Translations under genes and position numbers: made by a program
Notes under the pieces: model-generated
What the model saw: the letters and a program-made list of their open reading frames with translations, nothing else
Told to the model about the DNA's origin: nothing
Databases searched by the model: none
In this document: positions 4,498-31,746 of the stretch, piece by piece
Numbering within the stretch: the stretch's first letter is position 1
How the letters are laid out: each line of letters opens with the position of its first letter
DNA from: Nitrospira sp.
GTDB taxonomy: Bacteria; Nitrospirota; Nitrospiria; Nitrospirales; Nitrospiraceae
Reading direction: 5' to 3'
DNA length: 34,860 nucleotides
Assembly: GCA_021323395.1 (NCBI GenBank)
Contig: JAJONL010000014.1
Location: forward strand, 1 to 34,860

Positions 4498-4500
4498 AGG

Positions 4501-5286
4501 ATGAAGAGCTGCGTCTACGAGGGGACGGTAAGGCACCGCCGCAGCGCGCCGGTCCATCACGCGTTCCAGTATTCGATCTTCATGATGTACCTGGATCTGG
4601 CGGAGTTGCCGGACCTGTTCCGCAAGCGGTGGCTCTGGTCCGCTCAGAGACCCAATGTCGCCTGGTTCAGTCAGGACGACCACCTGGGAGATCCGCAGAT
4701 CCCGTTGGATCACAACGTGCGCGACCTCGTCGAGGCGAAGACGGGTCAGCGGCCGGCCGGTCCGATCCGCCTGCTGACACATCTTCGTTACTTTGGGTAT
4801 GGATTCAATCCGGTCAGTTTTTATTTTTGTTTCGACCCTACCGACAACCTGGTTGAAACCATCGTGGCCGAAGTCACGAACACGCCCTGGGGCGAACAAC
4901 ACTGTTATGTGTTGGGGGAGTCGCTGGACGAGGGCATCGGCCGTCGTTACCGCTATCGATTCGGCAAGCAGTTCCATGTCTCACCATTCATGGACATGCA
5001 TGTGGATTACGATTGGCGGTTCAGCAGCCCCGGCGGCAGGTTAGCGGTGCATATGGAGAATCTGCGCGGAGGGGAACGGTTCTTCGATGCCACAATGGTC
5101 CTGCGCCGGCAGGAGATCACCGCGGGTTCACTCGCACGGGTCCTGGTGCGGTATCCGCTGATGACGATGCGGGTCATCGGAGCTATCCACTGGCAAGCGT
5201 TGTGTTTGTGGCTGAAGCGCTGTCCGTTGGTTCCCCATCCTAGAACGCCCAGTCACTCCGTTGATGCAAGGAGGACATCCGGATGA
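4501..5286 (+). CDS. DUF1365 family protein
   Basis: Protein of 261 residues belonging to DUF1365. It opens with the family pattern VYEGTVRHRRSAPVHHAFQY, followed by LLTHLRYFGYGFNPVSFYFC and EVTNTPWGEQHCYVL, then KQFHVSPFMDMHVDYDWRF, all hallmarks of the family. There is no signal peptide; conserved aromatic and histidine residues dominate. The biochemical activity is not settled, but the family almost always travels with a COG2907 flavoprotein and a CFA-type methyltransferase. It starts 3 bases after the flavoprotein stop, and its own stop overlaps the methyltransferase start (5283-5286), so the three are probably translated together. The last 25 or so residues after the LWLKRCPLVPHP segment look unconserved. 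A role in oxidising or modifying the methylated acyl chain is inferred only from context. Confidence 0.92.
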   Translation: MKSCVYEGTVRHRRSAPVHHAFQYSIFMMYLDLAELPDLFRKRWLWSAQRPNVAWFSQDDHLGDPQIPLDHNVRDLVEAKTGQRPAGPIRLLTHLRYFGYGFNPVSFYFCFDPTDNLVETIVAEVTNTPWGEQHCYVLGESLDEGIGRRYRYRFGKQFHVSPFMDMHVDYDWRFSSPGGRLAVHMENLRGGERFFDATMVLRRQEITAGSLARVLVRYPLMTMRVIGAIHWQALCLWLKRCPLVPHPRTPSHSVDARRTSG

Positions 5287-13095: not shown

Positions 13096-14592
13096 CTACC
13101 CTCCAAAGGGGGTCGCGGGCGGAGGCATCGAGGCCGAAGGAGCCATGAAGTGAGAAAACATGAGGGTTGCAGCCACGGCCCAATCGAGGAACGGTTGAGG
13201 ATAAATGCCGATCACGAGCGTTCCAGCGAGTCCGACGTAAATCACCGCCCGCAGGGGACCCGTGGTTTTGATGGGAGACGTATCCAGCGGTTCGCTGATG
13301 TACATTTTCTTGACGACGATCAAATAGTAGTACATCGAGATGACAATGTTGATCAGCCCAACCGTGATGAGGACGTAGAGTCCTTCCTTGATCGCCGCGA
13401 CAAAAATATAGAGCTTGCCGATGAACCCAGCGAGCGGAGGAACGCCGGCCAAAGAGAGCAGGAAAAGGAGCATGGCAAACGCCAGAAACGGTGAACGCCG
13501 ATTCAGTCCGCTGTAGTCGTCGATTTCATCGCTGCCGACCGCATTGCTGATCGCCATGATGACTGCGAAGGCCCCCAGGTTTGCGAACAGGTACGTCAGC
13601 AGGTAGAACAGAATGGAATCGGTTCCCATTTTTGTCCCGGCGGCGAGACCGATCAGCACGTTTCCCACTTGCGCGATGCCTGAATAGGCCAGCAGTCGCT
13701 TGATGTTCCGTTGACTGATGGCCACGATATTGCCGTACGTCATCGAGAGAATGGAGGCCGCGACGATAAGCAACGTCCAGGCCGGCTTAAAGGTGGCCAG
13801 CGCCACCAGGAACAAACGCAGCAGAATCGCAAAGGCGGCCACTTTGGGAGCGATCGACAAAAAGGCGGTGACCGGCGTGGGGGCGCCCTGGTAGGTGTCG
13901 GGAATCCAAGAATGGAATGGCACGGCGCCGATTTTGAATCCCAAAGCCGCAAAAATGAGCAGGAAGCCGATGACCAAACCGGTGGTCGGGGTGGCCCCGC
14001 TCATGTCCGAGAAGACCAGTTTGCCGGTTTCACCGAAGACCAGACTGATACCGTAGGCCAACAATCCTGCCGCAAAGACGCCCAGGATGAAGAACTTCAG
14101 CCCGGCCTCGTTGGAGGCCATATCTTCGCGCAGATAGGACACCAGCACGTAAAAGCCAAATGTCGCGAATTCGAGGGTGACAAAGAGAGACAAGAGGTCA
14201 TTGGCCGAGGCCATGAACATCATGCCCAGTGCCGACATCGCGACGAGGAAATAATATTCGCCACGGAAAAATGAGAAGCGATGCACGTAATCGATCGACA
14301 GGAGAATAACCAAGATCGTCGCCAGCAGGATCAGGACCTTGAAGAAAATGGCCAAGCGATCCAGGACGAACATCTTGCCGAACAGGGTGCCGGTCAGGCC
14401 GGTGATGTCAAACCAAACCAGGCAGGCCAGGGTCATGGTGAGCCCTAGAATGGTGAGATAGGCCAGCTGCTCCTGCACGATTCGTTTAAAGGAAAAATCG
14501 GCGATCAGGACGACGCAGAGCCAGGCTGTGAGAAACAGCTCCGGCAGCAGCAGCAGCAGATCACTGGCTGAAAGCGTCAGGGAGAACGTCAT
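13096..14592 (-). CDS. nuoN: NADH-quinone oxidoreductase subunit N
   Basis: Antiporter-like membrane subunit of complex I, 498 residues with about 14 transmembrane helices. It sits next to the quinone module in the membrane arm and takes part in proton translocation. The TM5 glutamate (Glu141 in FVTLEFATFGF) and the TM7 lysine (Lys220 in ALGFKIGAVPFHSW) are in place, as is the following PDTYQGAPTPVTAF motif, so it looks functional. The ATG at 14592 overlaps the stop of the second nuoM (14589-14592). It is the last gene of the nuo operon. No obvious rho-independent terminator lies in the 132 bases before the CHASE3 kinase gene, so some read-through is possible. Confidence 0.97.
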   Translation of the reverse strand: MTFSLTLSASDLLLLLPELFLTAWLCVVLIADFSFKRIVQEQLAYLTILGLTMTLACLVWFDITGLTGTLFGKMFVLDRLAIFFKVLILLATILVILLSIDYVHRFSFFRGEYYFLVAMSALGMMFMASANDLLSLFVTLEFATFGFYVLVSYLREDMASNEAGLKFFILGVFAAGLLAYGISLVFGETGKLVFSDMSGATPTTGLVIGFLLIFAALGFKIGAVPFHSWIPDTYQGAPTPVTAFLSIAPKVAAFAILLRLFLVALATFKPAWTLLIVAASILSMTYGNIVAISQRNIKRLLAYSGIAQVGNVLIGLAAGTKMGTDSILFYLLTYLFANLGAFAVIMAISNAVGSDEIDDYSGLNRRSPFLAFAMLLFLLSLAGVPPLAGFIGKLYIFVAAIKEGLYVLITVGLINIVISMYYYLIVVKKMYISEPLDTSPIKTTGPLRAVIYVGLAGTLVIGIYPQPFLDWAVAATLMFSHFMAPSASMPPPATPFGG

Positions 14593-16241
14593 TGTGGCGC
14601 CACCTTCGCAATGGCCTCAGGGGCCGTGGGGGGCATAAGGGGCAAGGCCGCGCGAGATTTATCCCGCGAATGCTCCGCGACCGGGACGACCTTGGTAATG
14701 CGGGCTATCAACGGATCAACACCGGATCGGACGACTGAGTAGAGATGGCCAGGAAAAATCCCGAAGCTGATACTGACCGTGATCATGATCAGGAGCGGCA
14801 GGCGATCGACGACGGTCACCGCATCGTGGGAATGACTGTATTTCTCCGCCATCGATCCATAGAAGAGCCCGCGCATCATCTTGAAGAGATAGGCCATGGT
14901 CAGGACGATGCCCAGGACGGCGATCACGACCTGGAAGGGGTATTTGTTCCAGCTGCCGACGATGATCATGACCTCGGCGATGAAGTTCACGGTGCCGGGC
15001 ATGCCGATCGAGGCCATGCAGCCGATGATGAAGGCGGCGGAGATGAACGGCATTCGATTGGAGAGGCCTCCGAGCGATGGGATATCGCGAGTATGCGTTT
15101 GGTCGTAGACCCAGCCGGCCATGGCGAACAGCATTCCGGTGGCCATGGCGTGAGCGAACATATAGATGACGGCTCCGCTCAGGCTGATGTAATCCAGCGC
15201 CGCCATGCCGAGGAAGACATAGCCCATGTGGCTGGAACTGGAATAGCCGATCACATACTTGGTGTCTTTCGCGTAATACGCGACCAGCCCCCCGTAAATG
15301 ATGCTGAAGATGCAGAGGACGGCGGCGATCGGCATGAGCTCGCGCGTCGTCTCGGGCAGGATCTCAAAGGCGACACGAATGATGGAGAAATGTCCCAGCT
15401 TCATGAGTACGCCGGCATGCAACATGCTGGTCGCCGCCGGCGCGGCCGCGTGCCCGACCGGCGACCAGGAATGCAACGGCCAAATCGGGGCGATCGACGC
15501 AAATCCAAAAAAGATCAAGAGCCAGATGACCGTCGCCAGAGGGCCAGAGAAATGGGCCTGCTCGCGCAGAACTAAGATATCAAAGGTGTTGAGCCCCGAG
15601 AATTTATAAATGAGCAGAATGCCCATCAAGGCCACGACGGCAAAGGCGGAAAGAAATAAGACCAACTTCATGGCCGCGTATTCTTTGCTATTCGCGCCGA
15701 AATTGAAGATGAAGCCCACCGAGTCTCGCTGCTTCAAGCCTTCGGGATCCGTCATCTCGAGATATTTCTTGGTATGACTGCCCCACATGCCCAGAAGGAG
15801 ATACATGGGGATGACCGACATTTCATAAAAGAAATACAGGAAAAAGAGGTCCAGTGATATGAAGACGCCGATGGTGGCGGCGGCCAGGATCAAGATCCAG
15901 ATGTAAAACTCTTTAATGCGATCTTTGATGTGCCACGAGACGAAGATGCCGGCGAAGAGCAGGATGGAGGAGGCAAGCACCAGCGGCGTGCCGATGCCGT
16001 CCACGCCGAGGTGCAGCGCGATTCCCAACTGGCGTGACCATTCAATCCGCTGAATAAATTGAAAACCGCCTCGGAGCGGATCGTACGCGTAGAATAAATA
16101 GATCGAGGCAATCAAGGAGATGAAGGCGGAACCAGCGGCGATGCCTCGCACCAATGAGAGTTGCCGGTTGGAGACGAAGATCAGGGTCAGGGCACCGGCA
16201 AAAGGGGCAAACAAAATGATGAGCAGTGTGTATTCAGCCAT
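14589..16241 (-). CDS. nuoM: Second NADH-quinone oxidoreductase subunit M (divergent, fourth pump)
   Basis: Second NuoM-type antiporter-like subunit, 550 residues. It follows the first nuoM after 3 bases and precedes nuoN with a 4-base overlap. Conserved helices are visible, with the TM5 glutamate Glu140 (FFYEMSVIPMYLLLGMWG), Lys192 (YAAMKLVLF), Lys281 in TM8 (AGVLMKLGHF) and a TM12 glutamate (NFIAEVMIIVG). The TM7 position that is lysine in other pumping subunits (FAFKAPVFPFHTW in the first NuoM) is Ser249 here: FGFASIAPIWPLHSW. The next motif, normally WLPDAxVExP, reads WSPVGHAAAP. A loop of about 25 residues (about 155-185) is inserted after TM5, and the C-terminus is extended by about 40 polar residues. 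It fits the fourth antiporter subunit of the described 2M complex I cassettes. Its pumping ability is uncertain. Confidence 0.94.
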   Translation of the reverse strand: MAEYTLLIILFAPFAGALTLIFVSNRQLSLVRGIAAGSAFISLIASIYLFYAYDPLRGGFQFIQRIEWSRQLGIALHLGVDGIGTPLVLASSILLFAGIFVSWHIKDRIKEFYIWILILAAATIGVFISLDLFFLYFFYEMSVIPMYLLLGMWGSHTKKYLEMTDPEGLKQRDSVGFIFNFGANSKEYAAMKLVLFLSAFAVVALMGILLIYKFSGLNTFDILVLREQAHFSGPLATVIWLLIFFGFASIAPIWPLHSWSPVGHAAAPAATSMLHAGVLMKLGHFSIIRVAFEILPETTRELMPIAAVLCIFSIIYGGLVAYYAKDTKYVIGYSSSSHMGYVFLGMAALDYISLSGAVIYMFAHAMATGMLFAMAGWVYDQTHTRDIPSLGGLSNRMPFISAAFIIGCMASIGMPGTVNFIAEVMIIVGSWNKYPFQVVIAVLGIVLTMAYLFKMMRGLFYGSMAEKYSHSHDAVTVVDRLPLLIMITVSISFGIFPGHLYSVVRSGVDPLIARITKVVPVAEHSRDKSRAALPLMPPTAPEAIAKVAPQ

Positions 16242-16244
16242 GGT

Positions 16245-17810
16245 CTACTTTTGCTTCGTCGGCACATGGACGACGCTCTCTACGGAGGCCAGTTTCGCTC
16301 GATCGAGCCGATCGACGAGAGCTTGAATGGATCCATTCATCATGCGCAGGAACGGTGAAGGATAGAGGCCGATCCACAAGATCATGATCGACAGCGAGAG
16401 CGCAATGGTGATCTCCCGCATGTGCAAATCTTTGATCGCCGCTGAGACATTCTTGGTCAGCGGCCCGAGCATCGCGCGCTCGTAATACCAGAGAAAATAG
16501 GCCGCGCCGAAGATGACGCCGAGAACCGCCACGGCGCCATACCACCATTTCGCCTTAAACGCGCCGAGGAGGATCAGGAATTCTCCGACGAACCCGTTCG
16601 TGCCGGGCAGTCCAATGGACGCCATGCCGATCAACAGGAGAAAGGTGGCCAGGAGGGGGACCTGTTTCGCAAATCCTCCGAAGGCGGAGAGGTGAGAGCT
16701 TTGCTGCCTGGTCGATAAGAATCCCGCCATAAAAAAGAGGCCGGCGGTGCTGAATCCCAGGTTGATCATGGTCAAGAGGCTGCCTTGCAGGCCTTGAAAG
16801 TTCAGGGCGAAGAGCCCGACCACGACAAAGCCAAGGTGGCTGATGCTGCTGAATGCGAGGAGACGTTTGAAGTCCGATTGCACCAACGCCACGACCGCAC
16901 CATAGAGAATCGCTGTCAGAGCCAGCACCATCACGATGGCGACCACGCCCTCGCTTTTTGACGCGTCGGGCACCAATGGAAAGGTGAATCGAAGGAATCC
17001 ATAGGTACCCAATTTCATGCCCGCCAGCATGACGGCCATCCCGATGGGGCCTTCCACCAGCGCATCCGGCAGCCAGGTATGAAACGGGAACACCGGCGCC
17101 TTGAAGGCAAATCCCATGAACATGAGCCAGAAGATCAGAATTTGCTGGGACAGTGGAATGGGGATAGACAGCAATTGCAGGAGGTCGAACGAGTAGACGT
17201 CGTCGAGGTGATGCGTCACGGCCCATTGGTGATAATTGATATCGAGCAGCGCAATGCCTACCAGCATGAAGACGCTTCCCAATAACGTATAGAGGACATA
17301 CTTGAGCGCCGCGTAGTGACGTTCCGGTCCGCCGCCCCACAACTTGATCAAGAAATAGCTGGGGATGAGCATGAGCTCCCAGAAGACGAAGAACAGGATC
17401 AGATCGATGGACACAAAGATCCCGATCGTGGTGGTCTCCAGCGCCAGGAGCGCCATGAAGTACAGCCGAACCTGGTTGCGCACCGTGTCCCAGGAATAAA
17501 TGACGACCAGCACGGTGAGGAAGGCCGTGAGGCCGACGAAGAGCACACTGATCCCATCGACAGCGAGGTGATAACCGATGCCGAGCGCTGGCATCCATCG
17601 GGCATGTTCGGCGAACTGCATGGCTGCGGAATCCGGCACGAAGCGCAGCAGCACGAGGATCGCCAGCGCCAGCTCCACCAACGTGATGCCCAGCGCCGTC
17701 GTTTTCACAAGATCTTCGTCTTCGATCAACCAGAGGAGGGCCGCCCCGGCCAACGGAAGGAAAACCAGATATGAGAGTATGGGAAAGCCGAAACTAAACT
17801 CTTCAAGCAT
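16245..17810 (-). CDS. nuoM: NADH-quinone oxidoreductase subunit M
   Basis: Canonical antiporter-like subunit of complex I, 521 residues with about 14 transmembrane helices, translocating protons in the membrane arm. Key residues are present: Glu145 in FFVFWELMLIPSYFLI, Lys170 in YAALKYVLYTLLGS, Lys237 in FAFKAPVFPFHTWLPDA, Lys266 in AGMKLGTYGF and a TM12 glutamate in GFVGEFLILLGAF. This is the complete set expected of NuoM, in contrast to the next gene. It begins at the ATG at 17810, 23 bases after the nuoL stop, and ends 3 bases before the second nuoM. The two NuoM proteins are clearly different in sequence, so they are not a recent duplication. Confidence 0.97.
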   Translation of the reverse strand: MLEEFSFGFPILSYLVFLPLAGAALLWLIEDEDLVKTTALGITLVELALAILVLLRFVPDSAAMQFAEHARWMPALGIGYHLAVDGISVLFVGLTAFLTVLVVIYSWDTVRNQVRLYFMALLALETTTIGIFVSIDLILFFVFWELMLIPSYFLIKLWGGGPERHYAALKYVLYTLLGSVFMLVGIALLDINYHQWAVTHHLDDVYSFDLLQLLSIPIPLSQQILIFWLMFMGFAFKAPVFPFHTWLPDALVEGPIGMAVMLAGMKLGTYGFLRFTFPLVPDASKSEGVVAIVMVLALTAILYGAVVALVQSDFKRLLAFSSISHLGFVVVGLFALNFQGLQGSLLTMINLGFSTAGLFFMAGFLSTRQQSSHLSAFGGFAKQVPLLATFLLLIGMASIGLPGTNGFVGEFLILLGAFKAKWWYGAVAVLGVIFGAAYFLWYYERAMLGPLTKNVSAAIKDLHMREITIALSLSIMILWIGLYPSPFLRMMNGSIQALVDRLDRAKLASVESVVHVPTKQK

Positions 17811-17833
17811 CGTGTATCAGAAACTCCACAGCG

Positions 17834-19837
17834 TCAGCGTGACGAGTACCCGGTGGAACCGGATCCAGTCCAAATGAGAAGAACGATGTGCACGAGAATA
17901 AATAGCCCGGCCACTATAATGGCCGCATACTGGTGCACCATGCCGGTTTGGAGGCGTCGCCAAGAGCGAGCCAGCAGGTGGTTGGCATAGCCGATAATGT
18001 TCAAGAACGCGTAGACGACGTGTTTTTCCGTCCAGGTAATGGCGGCCGAGCTCACGTCGGTTCCACGGTCGACCGAACGGACAAGGCCGTCGATGATGGT
18101 TCGATCGAACCAATCGCAGAATTGCCCCAATCGCTTGGTAGGTTCCACAAACAGGGTGTCGTAGAGTTCGTCGACATAGTACTTGTTGAGCAGGGTCGCG
18201 TAGACACCGGGCATTCGGCCGGCCAGCGCATCCACCGTGGTGGATTGGCCGCTGTAGAAATAATGAGCGAGCCCCCAACCCAGGAGCGCGATGATGGTGG
18301 CGGTACCCATTAAGGCCAACATCAGGGCCGGGGCGGTCGCATGCTCCTCACCGGCCACTCCTGCTACGGAATGGAGGAAATGATGAAACCAACCGTTTTC
18401 CGGCGGTACGCCGGGAAACCCGCCGATGACCGAGAGCGTGGCCAAGACCACCAGAGGGCCGATCATTACCATTGGGGATTCGTGCACATGCGCGGCGGTG
18501 TGATGATCCACACGTGAGCTGCCGTAGAATGTGAGGTATGTCAGACGGAACATATAAAACGACGTCAGGAAGGCGCCGACCGCGGCCATGCCATAGAGCA
18601 CATAATGTTGATGGACGAACGCATGGCCCATGATCTCGTCCTTGCTCCAGAAGCCCGCCAACGGCGGAATACCCGCAATGGCGATCGTCCCGATCAGAAA
18701 GAGCATGTGCGTCCAGGGAATTCTGGACTTCAAGGCGCCCATCTTGCGGATATCCTGCTCGCCGGACAGGGCGTGGATGACAGATCCAGCGGACAGAAAG
18801 AGCAAAGCTTTGAAAAAGGCGTGGGTCATCAGGTGGAAGACCGCAGCCGTATAGGCTCCGAGACCACACCCCAGAAACATATACCCGAGTTGGCTCACGG
18901 TCGAATAGGCCAGAACCCGCTTGATGTCGGTTTGGACCAGTCCGATCGTCGCTGCGAAGAGTGCCGTGAGTCCGCCGATCCAGGCCACAGTCGTCATGGC
19001 AACAGGCGAGAGATCGAAAATCGCATGGTTGCGGACGATCATATAGACACCGGCTGTGACCATGGTGGCGGCATGGATAAGCGCGCTGACCGGAGTCGGA
19101 CCTTCCATGGCATCGGGCAGCCAGGTATAGAGCGGAAGCTGCGCAGACTTTCCAACGGCGCCGATCAACAGGCAGAGCGCGATGGCTGTGGCCATTTCCG
19201 GCGACAACTGCGCGGCATTTTGCATGACCTGTGTGTAGTCCAGTGTGCCGAAATTGACGAACACCAGAAAGATCGCCAGCAGAAATCCGGCATCACCGAT
19301 TCGATTGACCACGAACGCTTTCGTGGCCGCTTTGGCGGCGGAAACTTTGTCGTAGTAGTAGCCGATCAGAAGATACGAGCAGAGCCCGACGCCTTCCCAG
19401 CCGATGAACAGGACGACATAGTTGTTACCCATCACGAGCAACAACATCGACACCATGAAGAGATTCATGTACACGAAGAATCGCGTAAAGCCAGATTCTC
19501 CATGCATGTAGCCCACGGAATATACATGGATGAGGAAGCCCACCCCCGTGATCACCAACAGCATGATGCAGGTCAAGGAATCGATTAAAAAGGCAAGGTT
19601 AATCGTGAGATCGCCGCCGAAGATCCACTTGTACGCCACCACCTCACGGGCTGCTCCAGTTCGCAGAACGTCTGTGAATACGGCTACAGAGCAAAGGAAT
19701 GAAAGTAGGACGGATCCCCAGGCGATCCGGTGTGCCAAGTCGTGGGAATAACGATGCCCGAGAAGACCGTTCACGAGGACGGCCATCAGCGGAAACAGCG
19801 GAATCAGTTTGACGATCAGATCGATAGAGTCGGACAC
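17834..19837 (-). CDS. nuoL: NADH-quinone oxidoreductase subunit L with lengthened lateral helix
   Basis: Distal antiporter-like subunit of complex I, 667 residues (E. coli NuoL has 613). Pumping residues are intact: Glu148 in IGWEGVGLCSYLLIGY, Lys230 in GAVGKSAQLPLYTWLPDAM and His255. The C-terminal region holds the amphipathic lateral helix that runs along the other antiporter subunits. Between IIDGLV (ending at residue 586) and the conserved RRLQTG about 40 residues are present where ordinary NuoL proteins have about 15-20, so the helix is longer by some 20-25 residues. This is what is needed to span an extra subunit. The start is a GTG at 19837, one base after the nuoK stop; an overlapping ATG at 19839 is out of frame. 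Confidence 0.96.
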   Translation of the reverse strand: MSDSIDLIVKLIPLFPLMAVLVNGLLGHRYSHDLAHRIAWGSVLLSFLCSVAVFTDVLRTGAAREVVAYKWIFGGDLTINLAFLIDSLTCIMLLVITGVGFLIHVYSVGYMHGESGFTRFFVYMNLFMVSMLLLVMGNNYVVLFIGWEGVGLCSYLLIGYYYDKVSAAKAATKAFVVNRIGDAGFLLAIFLVFVNFGTLDYTQVMQNAAQLSPEMATAIALCLLIGAVGKSAQLPLYTWLPDAMEGPTPVSALIHAATMVTAGVYMIVRNHAIFDLSPVAMTTVAWIGGLTALFAATIGLVQTDIKRVLAYSTVSQLGYMFLGCGLGAYTAAVFHLMTHAFFKALLFLSAGSVIHALSGEQDIRKMGALKSRIPWTHMLFLIGTIAIAGIPPLAGFWSKDEIMGHAFVHQHYVLYGMAAVGAFLTSFYMFRLTYLTFYGSSRVDHHTAAHVHESPMVMIGPLVVLATLSVIGGFPGVPPENGWFHHFLHSVAGVAGEEHATAPALMLALMGTATIIALLGWGLAHYFYSGQSTTVDALAGRMPGVYATLLNKYYVDELYDTLFVEPTKRLGQFCDWFDRTIIDGLVRSVDRGTDVSSAAITWTEKHVVYAFLNIIGYANHLLARSWRRLQTGMVHQYAAIIVAGLFILVHIVLLIWTGSGSTGYSSR

Positions 19838-19838
19838 A

Positions 19839-20141
19839 TTACCACTTCAAGAGATTCATTTCATCGACGTTGGTCGAAATTTTTCCGCGGAAGACGACAA
19901 TGATAATGGCCAATCCAATGGCCGCTTCTCCCGCTGCGATCGCAATGACGAAGAGCGCGACGATCTGACCTTGCATGGAGTCGAGATGATGGGAGAAGGC
20001 GACCAGATTGATAGTGGCCGCATTCAGCATGATTTCAACGGACATCAGCACGATGATGAAATTGCGTCGGATCAGTACTCCGAGCAATCCCGTCACAAAG
20101 AGAATCGCACTCACGGTGACATATGCAGAAAGAGGAATCAT
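19839..20141 (-). CDS. nuoK: NADH-quinone oxidoreductase subunit K
   Basis: Small three-helix membrane subunit of complex I, homologous to MrpC, forming part of the proton path near the quinone module. It has exactly 100 residues from the ATG at 20141, the usual NuoK length; the frame runs on to 20216, but that part has no NuoK similarity and overlaps the upstream gene. The two membrane glutamates needed for coupling are present, Glu36 (MSVEIMLNAATINLVAF) and Glu72 (AAGEAAIGLAI). It follows the SMR exporter gene after 8 bases and is followed by nuoL after 1 base. Confidence 0.96.
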   Translation of the reverse strand: MIPLSAYVTVSAILFVTGLLGVLIRRNFIIVLMSVEIMLNAATINLVAFSHHLDSMQGQIVALFVIAIAAGEAAIGLAIIIVVFRGKISTNVDEMNLLKW

Positions 20142-20149
20142 GGGGTCCG

Positions 20150-20467
20150 TTACGAACTCGAAAGCTTGAGAGAAACGATTCCTGTAATGATTAGAACGAT
20201 GCTGAAAATTCTCCATCCATCACGCGATTCTCCGAGCAGCACTATGCCTAAGATCGCGGTGCCGGCCGCACCGATTCCGGTCCAAACAGCATATCCGGTA
20301 CCGACAGGAATGGTCTTCAGTGCCACCGCGAGCAACCACACGCTCACAAGCATCGACAGGGTGAACAGGACAGTCGGCCAGAGACGCGAAAATCCTTCCG
20401 TGTATTTCAACGCAATGGCCCACCCGATTTCAAAAATGCCTGCTACCACTAAAAGAACCCAAGCCAT
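20150..20467 (-). CDS. gdx: SMR-family guanidinium exporter (Gdx/SugE type) inside the nuo operon
   Basis: Four-helix small multidrug resistance protein of 105 residues, working as a dual-topology dimer that exchanges cations for protons across the inner membrane. The sequence is of the Gdx (SugE) type rather than EmrE: Glu13 (central proton/substrate carboxylate), Trp16, Ser42, Tyr59 and Trp62 match the guanidinium-binding residues known for Gdx, and KTIPVGTGYAVWTGIGA is the typical TM3 segment. It lies between nuoJ (9-base gap) and nuoK (8-base gap) on the same strand, so it is almost certainly co-transcribed with complex I. There is no room for the guanidine riboswitch that often controls gdx. 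The ATG at 20467 follows an agagag ribosome site. Its role among respiratory genes is unexplained; export of guanidinium or a related cation is the best guess. Confidence 0.93.
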   Translation of the reverse strand: MAWVLLVVAGIFEIGWAIALKYTEGFSRLWPTVLFTLSMLVSVWLLAVALKTIPVGTGYAVWTGIGAAGTAILGIVLLGESRDGWRIFSIVLIITGIVSLKLSSS

Positions 20468-20476
20468 GTTGCTCTC

Positions 20477-21001
20477 TTAACGATCAGGGTTATGCTTGGC
20501 TATGCTTGGGGTTTTGGCTAGGACAATAGCGCCGACGATCGCTGCCGTCAGGAACATCCCAATGATCTCGAATTGCAGCAGGTACTCGCTGAACATCTTG
20601 ATCCCGACGGCGTGCGCGTCTCCTTGCTGCAGAATCGCCGCTGCCGGGGCATCGCCTTTTGCGCCACCGAACGGGGATCGCACTAGCAAGAATAGGAGAT
20701 ACCCCAGTCCCATAGCCGCAGGAGCGAGCAAGTAGGGCGTCTTAGTGTGGAAGTAACGGTCCTCCGTCTTGAGGTTCAGCAACATGAGGACAAATAAATA
20801 CAGCACCAAAATCGCGCCTGCGTACACGATGACTTGGACGGCCCATAAGAATTCGGCGTTCAGCATGATGAACAGACCCGACACGTGCAGTAGCAGGGCC
20901 AGGAGCGCTAAGCCGCATTGCACCGGGTGTTTGAGCGACACGGTCAGAATGCCGGCGACAATACTCACCACTGCGAAATACGCGAAAAACACAAAAGCCA
21001 T
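20477..21001 (-). CDS. nuoJ: NADH-quinone oxidoreductase subunit J
   Basis: Five-helix membrane subunit of complex I, 174 residues. The family core VQVIVYAGAILVLYLFVLML, a TM3 with the pi-bulge region important for coupling, is present, as is the N-terminal pair of helices (VVSIVAGILTVSLKHPVQCGL). The C-terminal helix (FEIIGMFLTAAIVGAIVLAK) is also typical. A polar loop rich in Gly and Ala (FGGAKGDAPAAAILQQGDA) separates helices 4 and 5. The ATG at 21001 lies 10 bases after the nuoI stop. Downstream the order is broken: gdx comes next instead of nuoK. Confidence 0.96.
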   Translation of the reverse strand: MAFVFFAYFAVVSIVAGILTVSLKHPVQCGLALLALLLHVSGLFIMLNAEFLWAVQVIVYAGAILVLYLFVLMLLNLKTEDRYFHTKTPYLLAPAAMGLGYLLFLLVRSPFGGAKGDAPAAAILQQGDAHAVGIKMFSEYLLQFEIIGMFLTAAIVGAIVLAKTPSIAKHNPDR

Positions 21002-21011
21002 AACAGCCTGA

Positions 21012-21599
21012 TCAACTCAAATGTTTGGGTTGTGATTGCGTGGGTTTGAGAACCGACTGCGGAAAGTAATAACGATACTCTCGGCTCTCGTCCGAGTTTT
21101 TTTCTTGGTTATGGGCGTACAGATATTTTTTGGCGTCTTCAAGATGGCGTTCACCTATCTCATAGAGCCGTTTTTTGTCGAAGAGGAGAGTCCGTTTGTC
21201 GTGGGTGGAATATTCATACATTTTGGTCATTGCCAGCGCGTTGACGGGGCACGCTTCCACACAGTAGCCGCAAAACACGCATTTGGTGATATCGATGTAG
21301 AACTCTGCGGCATAACGCTGGAGGGGGCGCTCGGGGTCTTCGTGGCTGATCACCTTGATGCAACGGGACGGACAGGCTGCTTCACAGAGGTCACAGCCCA
21401 CGCAGCGTTCCCGGCCGTCCTCGTACCGCAGTAACCCCAGAGCGCCGCGGTGACCGTCCGGAATAGTCCGCTGCTCCCGCGGATATTGGAAGGTGATCGG
21501 TCGATGGAACATGTGCTTGAAGGTCACCTTCATGGCGTCCCAAATTTCGTAAAACAAGGCCGCCTGAAGAAGTTTTTTGGTCCACGCCCCGACACTCAT
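21012..21599 (-). CDS. nuoI: NADH-quinone oxidoreductase subunit I (two [4Fe-4S] clusters)
   Basis: Ferredoxin-like subunit of the peripheral arm, 195 residues, carrying clusters N6a and N6b that pass electrons from NuoG to NuoB. Both motifs are intact: CVGCDLCEAACP (Cys66, 69, 72, 76) and CVFCGYCVEACP (Cys107, 110, 113, 117). An N-terminal amphipathic stretch (KVTFKHMFHRPITFQYP) anchors it to the membrane arm. The ATG at 21599 was preferred because gaggg lies 7 bases upstream; an ATG at 21620 would add seven residues but lacks a ribosome site. It directly follows nuoG, where nuoH would normally intervene. The C-terminus is extended by a polar tail rich in Ser, Lys and Gln. Confidence 0.95.
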   Translation of the reverse strand: MSVGAWTKKLLQAALFYEIWDAMKVTFKHMFHRPITFQYPREQRTIPDGHRGALGLLRYEDGRERCVGCDLCEAACPSRCIKVISHEDPERPLQRYAAEFYIDITKCVFCGYCVEACPVNALAMTKMYEYSTHDKRTLLFDKKRLYEIGERHLEDAKKYLYAHNQEKNSDESREYRYYFPQSVLKPTQSQPKHLS

Positions 21600-21643
21600 T
21601 CTCACACCCTCATACAACATCCAAAAGACGAACGAGCTTACTC

Positions 21644-24349
21644 TTACCCACCGACCTTTTCAATCTTCACCCCTGTGGATTTGAAGTACGGCACTCCCGT
21701 CACACTGTCGACTTCCACAGTCATTAAATCTTTCACCGGAGGCTCATTGAAATGTTCCGGGTAGAAACAACAGCCTGGCAAGACGTCGGGGTCTATCCTC
21801 ACGCCTAGCTGCACCGAGCCATGTGGCGAAGTCATCCGAATGGTGGTCTGCTCGTTGAGCCCGAGCCGCTGCAGGTCAGCCGGATTCATGCGCAGTCGAG
21901 CACTATTGGGCTCGATATTGATAAGCCCTGACGCTCGCGTAGACAGTTTACCGGAGTGATACAGCAGTTGACCTGTCACGAGCGTGAAGGGCCGCGCGGC
22001 CTCACTCGACGATTCTGTCGGCTGGATACGATACCGAGTTGCGACTTCGGTCGTATAGCCGTTTGATAGATAGGCGTCGGCCGAGGGGGTGATACGACGG
22101 GGCTGGCCGAGGTTATAATACCCCGGGAGTAGTTTCATGATTTCATCCTGCACGTCTTGTGCAGATTCATAGTGCCATTCGTACCCAAGACCGTTCGCCA
22201 GTGCAGTCATTATGTGCCAGTCCGGCAGACTTTCTCCCACTTGATCGAGCGCTTGGCGCACACGTAGGACTTTGCCTTCCAGATTGGTAAAGGTGCCGTC
22301 TTTTTCGGCATAGGTTGCCGCGGGGAGAACGATGTGCGCCATCTCGGCTGTTTCGGTGAGGAAGGGATCTTGAACGATCAGAAGTTGCAATTTTTCAAGG
22401 GTCCCCTTCGCCTCTAAGGAGGCCGGCAGCGTCGCCACGGGATTTTCTCCGATGACATAGAGGGCCTTGATCTGACCGCTTCGGATGCGTGCCAGAATTT
22501 CCAGAAGATTGGCCCCGCTGCCGATGGCGGGAAGGGTGACATCCCAGGCTTTCCCGAATCGTTCCCGCGCGATGGGGTCGTCGAAACGTGCCTGTCCTGG
22601 TAAGAACTCCGGCGCGACACCCATGTCGACCGCACCCTGCTCGTTGATTTCTTCCGTCACCGTCGTGACGCCGCATCCTGGTTGGCCGAGTTTGCCCGTG
22701 ATCCATGCGAGGTCAATGAGCTTCAGAACATTGTGGTAGCCGTTCGGGCGACGGACGATGCCTTCCGCGCACAGCGCGATGGCCCGGGGAGCTTCTGCGA
22801 AAATGGCCGCGGCTTCTCGAATCTGCTCGACAGCAATGCCGGTTCGAGCGGACACTTGCTCCAGCGATACCTGGTCGAGGGCCTGCTTCAAGGCCGCGAA
22901 TGCCTGCGGATGCCGCCCGGTGCTGGGCTCATCGATCAAGTCTTGCTCGATAACAGATTTAACCAGCCCGTCGATCAGTAATCCCTCCGTGCCCGGTTTT
23001 ACTAAGAGCGGGTGTGACGCGAGTTGAGCGATGTTGGTATTGGCCGAATCGACGACGATGACCTGTGCCTTGTACACCCGGATCGCTTCTTTGATGCGGA
23101 CGGAGGTCAACGGATTGGTCTCTGTAATATTGGAGCCAATCACAAGCACGGCTTTGGCCTTGGTCAGGTCCTCCCAGTCATTGAGCGGCCGTCCGATACC
23201 CACGGCATGCCGCACGGCATGTACATAATTGAGATGACCGTAGCGGGCGCTGCTGTCGAGTTGATTGGTCCGGAATCCGGCACGCATGAGTTTTTGAAAT
23301 AGGTACAGTTCCTCATTGGTGCAGCGTGCGGTGATGAGCCCGGCAATCGATTCAGGGCCGTGCTTACGATGGATGTCGGACAGCCGATCGATCACGGTTT
23401 GCATGGTGTCAAGCCAGGGTGTTTCAGTCAGCGAGTCGTTTTGACGCACCAGAGGCTGCCGCAAGCGTTGTTCACTGTCGATGTACTGAAACCCGAATCG
23501 TCCGCGGACGCAAATCCCGCCGTGGCCCTTGCTGGTTTCCGCCCGGTCACCCCATTTATTCTTCCAGGACAGCGGGGAGGTGACTCGGACGACTTCCGTG
23601 TCTTTGGTTTCGAGATACATCTGGCAGCCATCGCCACAATAATTGCAGGTGGTCGTGGTTTTCTTCATCTGCCAGGGTTTATAGAGATACTTGGAATATT
23701 TGTTCGTGATCGCACCGACGGGGCACACGGCCAGGCAGTCACCACAGAATTCGCAAGCCAGGGGTTGATCGCCTTTGGGTACAACCTGGTTAAAGCCGCC
23801 CTTTTTCATAAACTGCAGGGCGTCGATCATCAAGACGTCCTTGCAGACGTTGATACATTCGGCACAGGCGATGCAACGATTCATGTTGAAGTCGAGCACC
23901 AGGCTGCGCGTGTCTTCCGGAATAAATTTTTGTTTGGCGTTGGCGAGGTTGGTCACGCCATGCTGAAAGGCCATGTCCTGCAGTTCGCAATGTCCATCGG
24001 CATCGCAGACCGGACAATCCAGCGGATGGACGGAGAGGTGCTTTTCGACGGCTTTTTTTCGGGCCGCAAAGAGATCGTCGCCTTCCGTGCGGACAACCAT
24101 GCCGGACGCGGCCTTGGCGGTGCACGACCGGACCGGTGCCTTTTTGCCTTCCTGCATGACGAGACACATGCCGCAGGACCCGAATGGATCGAAGGTATAG
24201 TGGTAGCACATGGCAGGAATGATTTTGCCCGTGCTGGCGATCACGTCATAAAGCGAGACGCCGTCTTTTGCCGCGACCGTTCGTCCATCGATGGACAGTT
24301 CGATCGTCGCGGCTTCGACGTCTGGATTGGTCGCTGGTTTCAAACCCAT
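21644..24349 (-). CDS. nuoG: NADH-quinone oxidoreductase subunit G (iron-sulfur, molybdopterin-fold)
   Basis: Large peripheral-arm subunit of 901 residues. In order: a [2Fe-2S] domain with Cys48, Cys59, Cys62 and Cys76; the HxxxCxxCxxxxxC motif with His108, Cys112, Cys115 and Cys121 (cluster N5); two ferredoxin motifs, CIACAECINVC (159-169) and CEFCGDCLAVC (199-209); the N7-type set Cys235, Cys238, Cys242 and Cys280; and a molybdopterin-oxidoreductase fold to the end. Two ferredoxin motifs plus N7 resemble formate-dehydrogenase-type NuoG proteins. nuoE and nuoF, which supply NADH electrons, are missing from the 81-base gap before it, so the electron donor is uncertain. The ATG at 24349 follows a gaggta ribosome site. 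There is no nuoH before nuoI, only a gap of 44 bases. Confidence 0.95.
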   Translation of the reverse strand: MGLKPATNPDVEAATIELSIDGRTVAAKDGVSLYDVIASTGKIIPAMCYHYTFDPFGSCGMCLVMQEGKKAPVRSCTAKAASGMVVRTEGDDLFAARKKAVEKHLSVHPLDCPVCDADGHCELQDMAFQHGVTNLANAKQKFIPEDTRSLVLDFNMNRCIACAECINVCKDVLMIDALQFMKKGGFNQVVPKGDQPLACEFCGDCLAVCPVGAITNKYSKYLYKPWQMKKTTTTCNYCGDGCQMYLETKDTEVVRVTSPLSWKNKWGDRAETSKGHGGICVRGRFGFQYIDSEQRLRQPLVRQNDSLTETPWLDTMQTVIDRLSDIHRKHGPESIAGLITARCTNEELYLFQKLMRAGFRTNQLDSSARYGHLNYVHAVRHAVGIGRPLNDWEDLTKAKAVLVIGSNITETNPLTSVRIKEAIRVYKAQVIVVDSANTNIAQLASHPLLVKPGTEGLLIDGLVKSVIEQDLIDEPSTGRHPQAFAALKQALDQVSLEQVSARTGIAVEQIREAAAIFAEAPRAIALCAEGIVRRPNGYHNVLKLIDLAWITGKLGQPGCGVTTVTEEINEQGAVDMGVAPEFLPGQARFDDPIARERFGKAWDVTLPAIGSGANLLEILARIRSGQIKALYVIGENPVATLPASLEAKGTLEKLQLLIVQDPFLTETAEMAHIVLPAATYAEKDGTFTNLEGKVLRVRQALDQVGESLPDWHIMTALANGLGYEWHYESAQDVQDEIMKLLPGYYNLGQPRRITPSADAYLSNGYTTEVATRYRIQPTESSSEAARPFTLVTGQLLYHSGKLSTRASGLINIEPNSARLRMNPADLQRLGLNEQTTIRMTSPHGSVQLGVRIDPDVLPGCCFYPEHFNEPPVKDLMTVEVDSVTGVPYFKSTGVKIEKVGG

Positions 24350-24430
24350 GTAGTTACCTCAAGTCAAAAGCGATCGGGCGACAGCACGCGCTGCTGACCC
24401 GTCACTTTCTCCTTTGTGCTATATCGGTGT

Positions 24431-25678
24431 TCATCGATCGCATTCCCCCATGACGATATCGTAGGTGCCGAAGATCGTCACGGCGTCGGCAATCATGTAG
24501 CCTCTGGACATATGATCAAACGCCCCCATGTGAATAAACGAGGGAGCACGGATTTTCAACCGGTATGGCTTTCCGCCGCCCGTGCTGACGATATAGAACC
24601 CCAACTCACCTTTATGCGCTTCGGTGCCGCAATAAATTTCTCCCGGAGGGGCATTGAATCCTTGGGAGAACAGTTTGAACTGCTGAATCATGGACTCGAG
24701 ATTGGTGAACACTCGCTCCTTGGGCGGCAGGGTCACACTGGGCACATCCGCCATGATGGGACCGTCCTGGATTTGCTCCAGACACTGGCGGATGATCTTG
24801 ACGCTTTCATATAACTCTTGGACCCGAATCCAATAGCGATCGTAAGTATCGCCGTTCTTCCCGACGGGGACACTGAACTCACATTTGGGATAGGCGGAGT
24901 AGGGTTCATATTTGCGAAGGTCGTAGTCGACGCCCGATCCGCGGAGCGTGGGTCCGCTTAATCCGAAACTCAAGGCATCCTCTGCCGAAATGACCGCCAC
25001 ACCTTTTGTTCGCGCCAGCCAGATGCGATTCTTCTCCAGGAAGATGACATATTCATCGATCTTCGGAGGAAAGTAATCCAGGAACTGCCGAAGCTTGGCA
25101 AACAGAGACGGCGTGAAGTCCCGCTCGACGCCGCCAATTCGATACCAGCTGGTCGTGAGGCGGGCACCGCACAGTTCATCGAACCAATCAAGCAGGATCT
25201 CGCGGTCCCGGAAGCAGTAGAAGAAGACGGTCATGGCTCCGATATCGAGGGCCTGTGTGCCGAGCCAGAACTGGTGGCCGATGATGCGCTGGATTTCTGC
25301 GACGATGGTGCGCAGGTATTCGGCGCGATCCGGCACCGTGATGTTCATCAATTTTTCGACGGCTCGACAATAGGCAAAGTTATTGTACATCGCGCACACA
25401 TAATCGAGGCGATCGGTGTGCGGAATGAACTGGTGATAAGTCCCTTCCTCGGCCAGCTTTTCCACCCCTCGATGGAGAAAGCCCATCACCGGTGTCGACT
25501 TGACCAGCCGCTCCCCCTCCAGCTCAAGCACGACTTTGAGTACTCCGTGAGTACTGGGATGTTGTGGCCCCATGTTCAGCAGGAGCTCTTCGGTCCGTAG
25601 CGTAGGAAGCGTCGCGCTTTCCGGGTGCTCGGGGTCGATTTTATAGACTGTGGTTCGTTGGTCTTCGAACTGTGCCAT
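24431..25678 (-). CDS. nuoD: NADH-quinone oxidoreductase subunit D
   Basis: 49-kDa-type subunit of complex I, 415 residues, related to the large subunit of NiFe hydrogenases and forming the quinone pocket with NuoB. The N-terminal LLNMGPQHPSTHGVLKVVLE contains the quinone-site histidines (GPQHPSTHG), followed by GFLHRGVEKLAE and the C-terminal GTYDIVMGECDR typical of NuoD. The ATG at 25678 (MAQFEDQRTT) gives the normal length; an extension to 25750 would overlap nuoC and was rejected. It is separate from nuoC, not fused as in E. coli, with a 29-base gap. An 81-base gap without a gene separates it from nuoG, where nuoE and nuoF would usually lie. Confidence 0.96.
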   Translation of the reverse strand: MAQFEDQRTTVYKIDPEHPESATLPTLRTEELLLNMGPQHPSTHGVLKVVLELEGERLVKSTPVMGFLHRGVEKLAEEGTYHQFIPHTDRLDYVCAMYNNFAYCRAVEKLMNITVPDRAEYLRTIVAEIQRIIGHQFWLGTQALDIGAMTVFFYCFRDREILLDWFDELCGARLTTSWYRIGGVERDFTPSLFAKLRQFLDYFPPKIDEYVIFLEKNRIWLARTKGVAVISAEDALSFGLSGPTLRGSGVDYDLRKYEPYSAYPKCEFSVPVGKNGDTYDRYWIRVQELYESVKIIRQCLEQIQDGPIMADVPSVTLPPKERVFTNLESMIQQFKLFSQGFNAPPGEIYCGTEAHKGELGFYIVSTGGGKPYRLKIRAPSFIHMGAFDHMSRGYMIADAVTIFGTYDIVMGECDR

Positions 25679-25707
25679 GATTGTCCAGTGATCTAAAAAA
25701 AGCGTCC

Positions 25708-26205
25708 CTAGCGGGTCGGCTCGTCCAAGAACTCGAATGTATCGCGCCATCCTTTGCCGCGAAGGGGGAAATCTTTGCGGAGGGGATAGCCCTCTTCATA
25801 CTCGTCCGGCATCAAAATTCGACGAAGGTCCGGATGGTTGCGAAACCGGATTCCCATCATGTCGTACACTTCTCGCTCCATGAAGTCGGCGCCCCGCCAG
25901 ATATCAGTCAAGGAATCCACCACCGCATCCGATTCCGGAACTCGAGTTTTTAGGCGGATACGCTGGCGTGTCCGAATTGAATAGACCTCGTAGACCACCT
26001 CGAAGCGCTCCTCGTCATCCGGCCAGTCGACCGAGCTCACGTGCACGATGTAATCGAACCGCAAGGAAGGGTCGTCACGAAGAAATCGCGCCACGTCGTG
26101 CAAGGCTTCCCGCTTGACGATGACGGCGACATCCCCCCGCCACTCCGTCGCCTTGATAAAAGGGCCGGGGAACGTTTCCTCGATGCGTGTCGCCAGGTGA
26201 CTCAT
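25708..26205 (-). CDS. nuoC: NADH-quinone oxidoreductase subunit C
   Basis: 30-kDa-type subunit of the peripheral arm, 165 residues, with no cofactor; it braces NuoD and NuoB/NuoI. The family signature EREVYDMMGIRFRNHPDLRR, followed by ILMPDEYEEGYPLRKDFPL, is complete. The ATG at 26205 lies 16 bases after the nuoB stop. Length and motifs are ordinary. It precedes nuoD after 29 bases. Confidence 0.96.
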   Translation of the reverse strand: MSHLATRIEETFPGPFIKATEWRGDVAVIVKREALHDVARFLRDDPSLRFDYIVHVSSVDWPDDEERFEVVYEVYSIRTRQRIRLKTRVPESDAVVDSLTDIWRGADFMEREVYDMMGIRFRNHPDLRRILMPDEYEEGYPLRKDFPLRGKGWRDTFEFLDEPTR

Positions 26206-26221
26206 AGAATGTTCGCTGCCG

Positions 26222-26749
26222 CTAGGCTTTCAGGGCACCCTTCACTTCTTTGGGCTGCGTGAGGAACACGCGCTTCTGCATGATGCGCTCTTGGAGTTTC
26301 AGAATGCCATCGAATAAGGCTTCTGGAGTCGGGGGACAACCAGGCACATAGATATCGACCGGCACAAACCGGTCGACTCCCTGCACCACGCTATAGCTGT
26401 CGTAAATATTGCCCGATGTGGCGCACGAGCCCATGGCAATCACATACTTTGGCTCCGGCATCTGGTCATAAATTTTCCGAATGACAGGGGCCATGCGTCG
26501 ACAGACAGTACCGGCGACGATCATGAGGTCGGATTGCCGGGGGGAGGCTCGAAAGACCCCGGCTCCGTATCGATCCATGTCATATCGGGACGACACGGCG
26601 GCGATCATTTCAATGGCGCAACAGGCCAAGCCGAATGTCATCGGCCACAATGAGCCTTTGCGAGCCCAATTGACCGCCTTTTCCACGGTCAGGGTAATCA
26701 CGTCGGGACTTCCGTCCTTGTCGTGACCTCCCAGCTGAATCAATCCCAT
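26222..26749 (-). CDS. nuoB: NADH-quinone oxidoreductase subunit B
   Basis: PSST subunit of 175 residues that carries cluster N2, the last iron-sulfur cluster before quinone. The ligands are Cys43 and Cys44 (GLACCAIEM), Cys109 (AMGSCA) and Cys138 (VPGCPPTPE), all present. The ATG at 26749 overlaps the end of nuoA by 10 bases. The N-terminus ([10 protein letters not shown]) is short and soluble. Length and motifs are ordinary for the family. Confidence 0.97.
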
Positions 26750-29333: not shown

Positions 29334-29362
29334 TTGTTGCCCCTAACTGGTGTTGCTAGAAT
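29334..29362 (+). promoter_or_regulatory. Candidate promoter of priA, implying a nearly leaderless mRNA
   Basis: TTGTTG (29334-29339) and TAGAAT (29357-29362) have a 17-base spacer. The predicted start falls at about 29368-29369, on or next to the priA ATG at 29368. No ribosome site precedes that ATG. Confidence 0.4.
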
Positions 29363-29367
29363 GGCGC

Positions 29368-31746
29368 ATGTTCGATCCACGTTCATCTGCGACCGCCATC
29401 TCCTCTACGGTCTATCCAGCCTATGTTGATGTGGTACTCCCACGCCGGCTCCGCCGGCCCTTTACTTATCTGATTCCGCCTGAACTCCAGGGCAAAGTAG
29501 AGGTGGGACAATCAGTCATTGTCCCATTCGGGACTCAAACTCTTCCTGGGCTTATCATTGCGGTCTATTCCCTGCTTCCGGCCGGGGCGCCGGATCAGGG
29601 TTTGAAAGCCGTTTGCTCGCTCGCTGAGGCATCCCCGGATCAGTATCTGACCTCCAGTCAAATAGAATTGAGCCGCTGGGTAGCCGACCGGTATGCCGCG
29701 CCCTGGGGCCAATGTATCAGGCTTGTTTTGCCCCCGGTTTGCCAAGCTGACCGAGTTCAGCCGCGGTATTTTCTTACGCAACAAGGGTTGGACCGTTTGT
29801 CATCCGCCCCCGAGGAACTTGGCAAGGCAGAGACGCAATTGCTGATGCGCCTTTCGCGTCGTCCCAAAGGCATCACTGCGGCCGGGCTCGCACCAGTCGA
29901 CAAGGTGCATGTGGTGTCTGCCTTGCAGACATTGCTCAATAAGGGGCTGATCGTTCGTCAGGACGCGGTGGGAACCCTGCGAGCCACTCGTTCTGGGAAG
30001 AAGGAGATTGGAAGAAACAATGAGCCCCTTCCCGAGCAGTTCGCGTTCGATTCATCGGCAAATCCCCCCGTCGAGGCGGCATCGTGGCCGGCTACTGTCG
30101 ATCAGGGGCTTTCGCGGGGTGCATTTGTTTCCCTTCTGATCCATGCGGGTGGTGACATCAAACTGTGGTGTCTGATGAAGGCGGTTCAGGCTACGCTTCG
30201 GCGCGGGCGTCGCGTGCTGATCATCACGGGAGATGTGGAGCGTGCCAATCGCCTGGCCGAAGTGCTCGCGGCCGCGGGAGAGCAGCCGCTGCGGTTGCAT
30301 AGCGGCTTATCGGTGAGAGACCGGGCGGTAGTATGGTGGTCGGTGCATGATGCATCGACGACGATTGTGGTCGGTACGCGCATGGCAGTCTTTGCGCCCA
30401 TTGAGAGACTGGGGTTGGTATGGGTAGAGGGAGAGGAAGATGCCTCGCTGAAAGAGGAGCAGGTACCTCGCTACCATGCTCGGGAGGTGGCACGGCGCCG
30501 GGCGGTTTGCGATGACGCGCTGTTAGTCTTGGCCTCCAGTCATCCTTCGCTCGAAAGTTGGGGGGCAGTTCAGAAAGACGAGATGACGGCCTGTGTCTAT
30601 CGCGACCATGCAATCTCACCACGTGTGCACGTGATCGATCCGAAGGGTTATCCGGAAGACACTGCGATGGGAACGTTGCTGACATCTCCTCTCCGTGAAG
30701 GCCTGCGTGACGCTCTTCGACAGAAAGCCCTGGCAATTGTGTATCTGAACCGCAAAGGGTTTGCCGGTGTGCTGCATTGCCGAGATTGCGGGACCGCGCC
30801 GCGCTGTGATGCCTGTAGCGTCACATTGACGTTCTATAGACGCAGCAATCACATGCGTTGCCACTATTGTGGCCGGACCAAAGCTGTTCCGGACCACTGC
30901 AGTCAGTGCCGGTCTCACAAGCTGGAGCCGGTGGGATCGGGCACGGAGCGACTTGAAGAGGCGGTGCGGCGTATGTTCCCGCAGGCTCGCGTTGGGCGTG
31001 TGGATAGCGAGACGATCCGCCGCCGGTCCGATGCGCGGGCGTTTCAGCGTCTGCTTGCCGCAGGCGACCTCGATATCGTGATTGGCACGCAAATGTTGTT
31101 TCACCTAGGCCTCCGGGCACAAGCAGCCTTCGTGGCTGTGCCGGATGCGGATGCGGGACTCCATGTTGCGGATTTTCGATCGGCGGAGCGGATGTACCAC
31201 GGCCTTGTCGATGCCGTCGAACTGGCTCGACCGGCACTGGCTGGGGGAGTAGTCATGGTGCAGACCCGTTTCACGGATCATCATGCGATGATAGCCCTGG
31301 CCAAGGGCGATCATTCCCTCTTTCTCGGGCCAGAACTGACGTTCCGGCGGATGCTGCAATACCCGCCGTATAGACATCTGGTGAGGCTGGATGTGTCGGG
31401 GACGCTTGAGCCGGCTGTGGCTCAAGGGGCCCACCATTGGGCGGAACTATTGCGGGAGAAGGTTGCTGGGGGAGAGATACAAGGATCGAAGGATGGCCGG
31501 CCGTCGGTTCTCCCTCAGGGAGTCGCGACGGTGTGTGGAGAGGAGGAAGGGACCGTTATCCTTGGACCTTCTCCGGCGCCCCATGCCAAGGCGAGAGGCC
31601 GGCATTGCTGGCAGATTCTGTTGAAGGTGCTCTCGCTTCAAACAGGAACGGAAATGGCCATCAGCACAGTTGAAGTGCTTGAACGAGGACCGCGGCGAGG
31701 TGCGCTTCGGTTCGATATCGATGTCGATCCGATTACCATGGGGTGA
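29368..31746 (+). CDS. priA: PriA (primosomal protein N') homologue lacking ATPase motifs
   Basis: Replication restart protein homologue of 792 residues. PriA normally binds stalled forks and unwinds DNA with ATP. Clearly kept are the 3'-end-binding N-terminal domain (YVDVVLPRRLRRPFTYLIP), the eight zinc cysteines (471, 474, 480, 483, 498, 501, 511, 514), YLNRKGFAGVLHCRDCG, EPVGSGTERLEE and ADFRSAER. The ATPase core is degenerate: Walker A (GVTGSGKTE in PriA) reads HAGGDIKLW (259-267), the DEEH box reads VEGEED (353-358), the AKGHDFP segment after GTQM reads LFHLGL, and QVAGRAGR reads DAVELARPA. The frame is fully open, so this is a diverged protein and not a recent pseudogene. Actinobacterial PriA proteins also lack these motifs, so a structural loader role is plausible. 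The ATG at 29368 is the only sensible start. Confidence 0.92.
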   Translation: MFDPRSSATAISSTVYPAYVDVVLPRRLRRPFTYLIPPELQGKVEVGQSVIVPFGTQTLPGLIIAVYSLLPAGAPDQGLKAVCSLAEASPDQYLTSSQIELSRWVADRYAAPWGQCIRLVLPPVCQADRVQPRYFLTQQGLDRLSSAPEELGKAETQLLMRLSRRPKGITAAGLAPVDKVHVVSALQTLLNKGLIVRQDAVGTLRATRSGKKEIGRNNEPLPEQFAFDSSANPPVEAASWPATVDQGLSRGAFVSLLIHAGGDIKLWCLMKAVQATLRRGRRVLIITGDVERANRLAEVLAAAGEQPLRLHSGLSVRDRAVVWWSVHDASTTIVVGTRMAVFAPIERLGLVWVEGEEDASLKEEQVPRYHAREVARRRAVCDDALLVLASSHPSLESWGAVQKDEMTACVYRDHAISPRVHVIDPKGYPEDTAMGTLLTSPLREGLRDALRQKALAIVYLNRKGFAGVLHCRDCGTAPRCDACSVTLTFYRRSNHMRCHYCGRTKAVPDHCSQCRSHKLEPVGSGTERLEEAVRRMFPQARVGRVDSETIRRRSDARAFQRLLAAGDLDIVIGTQMLFHLGLRAQAAFVAVPDADAGLHVADFRSAERMYHGLVDAVELARPALAGGVVMVQTRFTDHHAMIALAKGDHSLFLGPELTFRRMLQYPPYRHLVRLDVSGTLEPAVAQGAHHWAELLREKVAGGEIQGSKDGRPSVLPQGVATVCGEEEGTVILGPSPAPHAKARGRHCWQILLKVLSLQTGTEMAISTVEVLERGPRRGALRFDIDVDPITMG

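Follow-up and report, generated by a model that had tools for sequence, protein, structure and literature searches.

The PriA pseudohelicase is a kind of protein already known, from Deinococcus radiodurans. The PriA of that bacterium has no ATPase activity and does not unwind DNA, and it binds single-stranded DNA, forks and DnaB (Lopper et al. 2015, PMC4504706). The same study describes PriA as well conserved and its unwinding as useful, names Deinococcus-Thermus as the lineage that stands out from this pattern, and leaves open whether another helicase substitutes for PriA in D. radiodurans (PMC4504706). The PriA proteins of E. coli and Klebsiella (4nl4, 6dgd, 8fak) are active 3'-5' helicases with motifs I-VI intact. 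Judged by titles, and within a literature search whose coverage leaves out most subscription journals, no on-topic paper on Nitrospira PriA or its primosome and no PriA pseudohelicase paper besides the Deinococcus one were found, and the same search brought up no biochemical work on a PriA from Nitrospirota.

The window, which is the whole stretch of 34,860 nucleotides of Nitrospira DNA analysed here, contains a priA gene that shares with the E. coli and Klebsiella proteins the domain order, the zinc region and the predicted fold, but is motif-less (Table 1). The reading frame opens with a GTG codon and runs for 798 codons with no internal stop. A sequence-only reading of this DNA had described an open frame of about 790 codons beginning at 29368; the frame is indeed open, although that position is an in-frame ATG at codon 7 and the start lies upstream, at the GTG at 29350. 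The protein matches the PriA equivalog model of NCBIfam over its whole length and above the cut-off of 230 bits, and the Pfam domains PF17764, PF18319 and PF18074 all score above cut-off in the canonical PriA order. These matches and the open frame bear out the description of the protein as a full-length PriA homologue, and the eight cysteines and the PF17764 match agree with the zinc cysteines and DNA-binding N-terminus that the reading regarded as kept. By contrast with this set, no helicase or ATPase domain was detected in the protein at E ≤ 1 in the Pfam search. The proposed search for a second, motif-complete PriA was run on the window genome, which is 99.68% complete, and found none; the window protein is its sole copy. 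We consider the window protein to be an orthologous PriA turned predicted pseudohelicase.

Table 1. Positions of priA and of its domains and motif sites in the window (residue numbers refer to the 798-residue protein).
Feature	Position	Strand	Evidence
priA, 798 aa, helicase motifs lost	29350..31746	+	ORF; TIGR00595 353 bits
3'-DNA-binding domain, residues 27-128, retained	29428..29733	+	PF17764 70 bits; predicted fold
Motif I (P-loop) site, residues 263-273 LIHAGGDIKLW, GxTGSGKT absent	30136..30168	+	4nl4 alignment
Motif II/aromatic-rich-loop region, residues 358-379 WVEGEEDASLKEEQVPRYHARE, DEEH degenerate, RYHAR kept	30421..30486	+	alignment
Motif III site, residues 393-403 VLASSHPSLES, GSATPS lost	30526..30558	+	alignment
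Motif IV region, residues 463-473, LNRKGFA kept	30736..30768	+	alignment
Cysteine-rich zinc region, residues 477-520, 8/8 Cys kept	30778..30909	+	PF18319; lowest dN/dS within gene
Motif V region, residues 576-597, GTQM kept, AKGHDFPxVTLV replaced	31075..31140	+	alignment
Segment DADAGLHVADFRSAERMYH, residues 599-617, retained	31144..31200	+	alignment; 0.97 conserved within genus
Motif VI (arginine finger) site, residues 618-628 GLVDAVELARP, QVAGRAGR absent	31201..31233	+	alignment
PriA C-terminal domain, residues 673-794, retained	31366..31731	+	PF18074

The motif sites were located by aligning the protein to the solved Klebsiella PriA (4nl4). At motif I, GITGSGKTEVY of the reference is replaced by HAGGDIKLWCL, at motif III GSATPALE by ASSHPSLE, and at motif VI QVSGRAGRAG by DAVELARPAL; the reference segment GTQMLAKGHHFPDV corresponds to GTQMLFHLGLRAQA. 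At motif II, DEEHDSSYK becomes EGEEDASLK, so that DEEH reads EGEE and an acidic residue is kept at the first position. The features expected of an active PriA/SF2 helicase, namely Walker A, the DEEH of motif II, the GSATPS of motif III and the arginine fingers of motif VI, are therefore all lost or degenerate. What is kept comprises the eight cysteines, RYHAR, NRKG, GTQM and the DADAGL/DFRSAER residues. The claim that every ATPase/helicase motif is lost thus holds for the P-loop, for the segment after GTQM and for QVAGRAGR, and has to be softened for motif II, which is degenerate and in which the first-position acidic residue survives. Likewise, the structural motifs described as retained are so in RYHAR, NRKG and GTQM, but YKQ of the aromatic-rich-loop region is lost.

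An AlphaFold2 model of the window PriA (pLDDT 82.8) was computed from a 33-sequence alignment that included intact PriA. The solved structure that matches best is 8fak_H, E. coli PriA bound to a fork, with a Z score of 33.8 over 632 residues at 2.6 Å and a TM-score of 0.90 on the target, and no fold closer than PriA itself was found when the model was compared to the PDB. The intact sequences in the alignment could have pulled the model toward the canonical form, and the predicted fold is for that reason not independent evidence of function.

The loss extends well beyond the window. The order (families f1-f3) contributed PriA from 83 loci in the window's own family and 14 from outside that family; further members of the class and phylum were added, and motifs were tallied on one common alignment. 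The arginines of motif VI are missing in 97/97 PriA of the order and the P-loop in all 96 that cover that column, while the eight zinc cysteines are present in all 97; the same motif loss is seen in N. moscoviensis (L132). The sequence-only reading had named intact motifs in close relatives as the sign that would speak for sequencing error or recent decay. Every scorable PriA of the order lacks the motifs, and the reading's own test consequently does not overturn it. If a pseudohelicase is defined as a PriA ortholog whose catalytic motifs are defective lineage-wide, the order carries one, and as judged from the motifs the motor parts of PriA (ATP use and DNA unwinding) are lost across the whole order of Nitrospira. 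In the class, the P-loop is also lost in the three PriA of family f8, one of which is a fragment ending upstream of motif VI, and the P-loop, DE and RR are present in all PriA of families f4, f5, f6, f7, f9 and f10. Many other PriA elsewhere in the phylum are motif-intact.

The tree supports given here are SH-aLRT values from quick searches, with no bootstraps. In a tree built without the motif columns, the lost PriA of the order and of f8 form one clade (98) inside intact Nitrospirota; this single origin has its support of 98 in that tree, and smaller taxon samples place f8 without resolution. A second loss comprises 39 proteins of 13 other Nitrospirota families (f15, f21, f23, f25-f31, f33, f35, f38), which form a separate clade with a support of 100 in a tree that left out f25; L250, L253, L255 and L257 are examples of it. 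A tree constrained to unite these two clades is worse by 42.8 log units and is moderately rejected (p-AU 0.023). Family f37 includes a genome whose PriA has the P-loop and no motif VI, and the PriA of a second f37 genome, G354 (L243), has lost the P-loop, retains near-intact motifs II and III and contains one in-frame TAA, possibly a case of recent or ongoing motif loss. The loss in the window's order probably happened once, at the root of the order or close to it, and is one of at least three in Nitrospirota.

The comparison with D. radiodurans reveals both a likeness and a difference. In both lineages a PriA ortholog defective in Walker A and Walker B is retained lineage-wide. In Deinococcus, however, Walker A can still be recognised as a box in which Arg has taken the place of Lys, whereas in Nitrospira, from a different phylum and with a pseudohelicase predicted from sequence, the whole P-loop is erased together with motifs III, V and VI. 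Because the Walker A box is erased and not point-changed, the Nitrospira protein classes as a PriA pseudohelicase by sequence and not as the Deinococcus sequence type. The conservation pattern is consistent with fork binding and DnaB interaction in Nitrospira PriA, and we consider it probable that the protein serves as an ATP-independent scaffold for fork recognition and DnaB loading. In such a scheme PriA would grip abandoned forks through its 3'-binding domain, the two lobes of the helicase fold and the zinc region, and would deliver DnaB to the template of the lagging strand in an ATP-independent step, with DciA as the likely DnaB loader. The clearing of the lagging strand would either be unneeded, as at gapped forks, or fall to RecG or to a PcrA-like helicase of SF1. 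Candidates thus exist for the other helicase on which, according to the sequence-only reading, restart would rely, but forks that need no unwinding are just as possible.

The candidate partners were found widely: DciA in 57/58 genomes searched, and RecG in 42/42, above cut-off in 39. In E. coli the set further includes PriB, DnaT and DnaC. Canonical PcrA/UvrD has no representative in the window's order or in f8. The best PcrA match in the window genome (G000) reaches 453 bits and is not much higher elsewhere in its clade, compared to about 840-905 bits in most relatives of the class. The UvrD family is represented in this clade and f8 by a diverged relative of about 700 residues, a putative PcrA-like SF1 helicase, and in most members by an AddA/RecB-like protein of about 1130-1190 residues. 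A general rule by which the PriA motor and PcrA/UvrD are lost together was considered and rejected, since strong PcrA matches persist in most of the other lost clade and in family f20 PriA is intact, yet the PcrA match is weaker; the association is thus limited to one clade. Five Nitrospirota genomes (G070, G125, G144, G280 and G325; 87-99% complete) have no PriA recognisable even by profile search, and the few family members that lack it, such as G070 (99% complete), suggest that PriA may be dispensable.

The motor loss, the weakly conserved winged-helix region (0.61 within the genus, with high dN/dS in most genus pairs) and the clade-wide absence of canonical PcrA/UvrD suggest a remodelled fork biology, in which PriA would have been repurposed for another fork- or D-loop-binding role, such as the regulation of recombination, and restart would be independent of PriA. 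This reading is unlikely, as the most conserved parts of the protein are precisely the PriA DNA-binding parts and the zinc platform, and the D. radiodurans pseudohelicase still binds DnaB (PMC4504706). The equivalents of the SSB pocket, which we take to be Trp82, Arg697 and Gln701, are variable even among intact PriA and are therefore uninformative.

A residual ATPase, that is, a slow or regulated helicase hydrolysing ATP through a diverged site, is very improbable. The first Walker B position is often acidic, and most members of the order have E or D there, but the Gly-Lys-Thr of the P-loop is gone in all scorable members, the arginines of motif VI are gone in all, and K230R by itself abolishes the ATPase of E. 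coli PriA (cited in PMC4504706). The P-loop site also varies freely: its conservation within the genus is 0.69, the least of the motif sites, against 0.95 for the motif II region and 0.97 for the DADAGL-DFRSAER segment. A site less conserved than its surroundings is what would be expected if ATP binding had been freed from selection and the rest kept. Binding of ATP through a non-canonical site is possible on sequence grounds.

Many actinobacterial PriA have lost the same helicase motifs, in agreement with the comparable loss to which the sequence-only reading had pointed; of the 49 PriA examined in the phylum of the actinobacterial locus, 25 are lost and 24, about half, intact, and nearly all retain the zinc cysteine pairs. 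This likeness could have arisen by transfer of priA from actinobacteria or Deinococcus-Thermus, but such an origin is most improbable. The tree, in which Deinococcus was left out, places the window protein in Nitrospirota, and the 12 lost actinobacterial PriA that were placed form their own clade (98), which is more divergent; furthermore, the window protein scores 413 bits on a general model of PriA, compared to 179 for the best-scoring PRK14873 PriA model. On the tree of Nitrospirota and actinobacteria, with motif columns removed, the minimum number of changes of state is five. The choice between convergent loss and a wider non-helicase class, which had been left standing, falls, on these five changes and on the rejected joining of the two lost clades of Nitrospirota, on the side of convergence. 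PriA motif loss is, as traced on these trees, repeated and convergent, having occurred at least three times in Nitrospirota and also in actinobacteria.

Purifying selection on the motif-less PriA is strong. Among 27 genomes of the genus, the closest pairs give a priA dN/dS of 0.15-0.33. The window gene gives 0.13-0.22 against its 26 genus relatives, a rough estimate with dS above 1 in nearly all pairs, and 0.22 at a dS of 0.76 against its nearest relative; the lowest values within priA (0-0.15) are those of the zinc region. That selection maintains a non-helicase PriA, as had been proposed, is upheld by dN/dS well below 1 and by the frame, open in all 27 members. An origin of the loss in sequencing error, faulty assembly or recent decay into a pseudogene, for which the sole point is the longer branch of the window protein (0.27 versus 0.06 for its nearest relative), is refuted by the order-wide loss in constrained relatives with open frames and has a negligible probability.

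Repeated loss of the motor motifs has affected a group of major ecological weight, the nitrite-oxidising Nitrospira, while the DNA-binding and zinc parts are under strong selection. Intact and motif-less PriA within one class constitute a natural separation-of-function set, with which the purpose of the PriA helicase activity becomes testable by comparison. In genomes with a motif-less protein, the activity part of the annotation 'PriA helicase' is probably wrong. More tentatively, and with doubt outweighing confidence, PriA motor loss may be common and repeated, with at least three independent losses in Nitrospirota; restart may normally be a motor-free scaffold reaction in which PriA unwinding is accessory; and the window's clade, which also lost canonical PcrA/UvrD, may have rebuilt its set of fork-processing helicases.

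Elsewhere in the window, inspection of the translations by eye located complex I (nuo) genes at 13096-26749 on the minus strand, with two adjacent NuoM-like subunits in the cluster (14589-16241 and 16245-17810, minus strand). A further cluster at 2477-6590 on the plus strand, also recognised by eye, looks like a set of genes for an SDR, an FAD oxidoreductase, a DUF1365-like protein and a cyclopropane fatty acid synthase.
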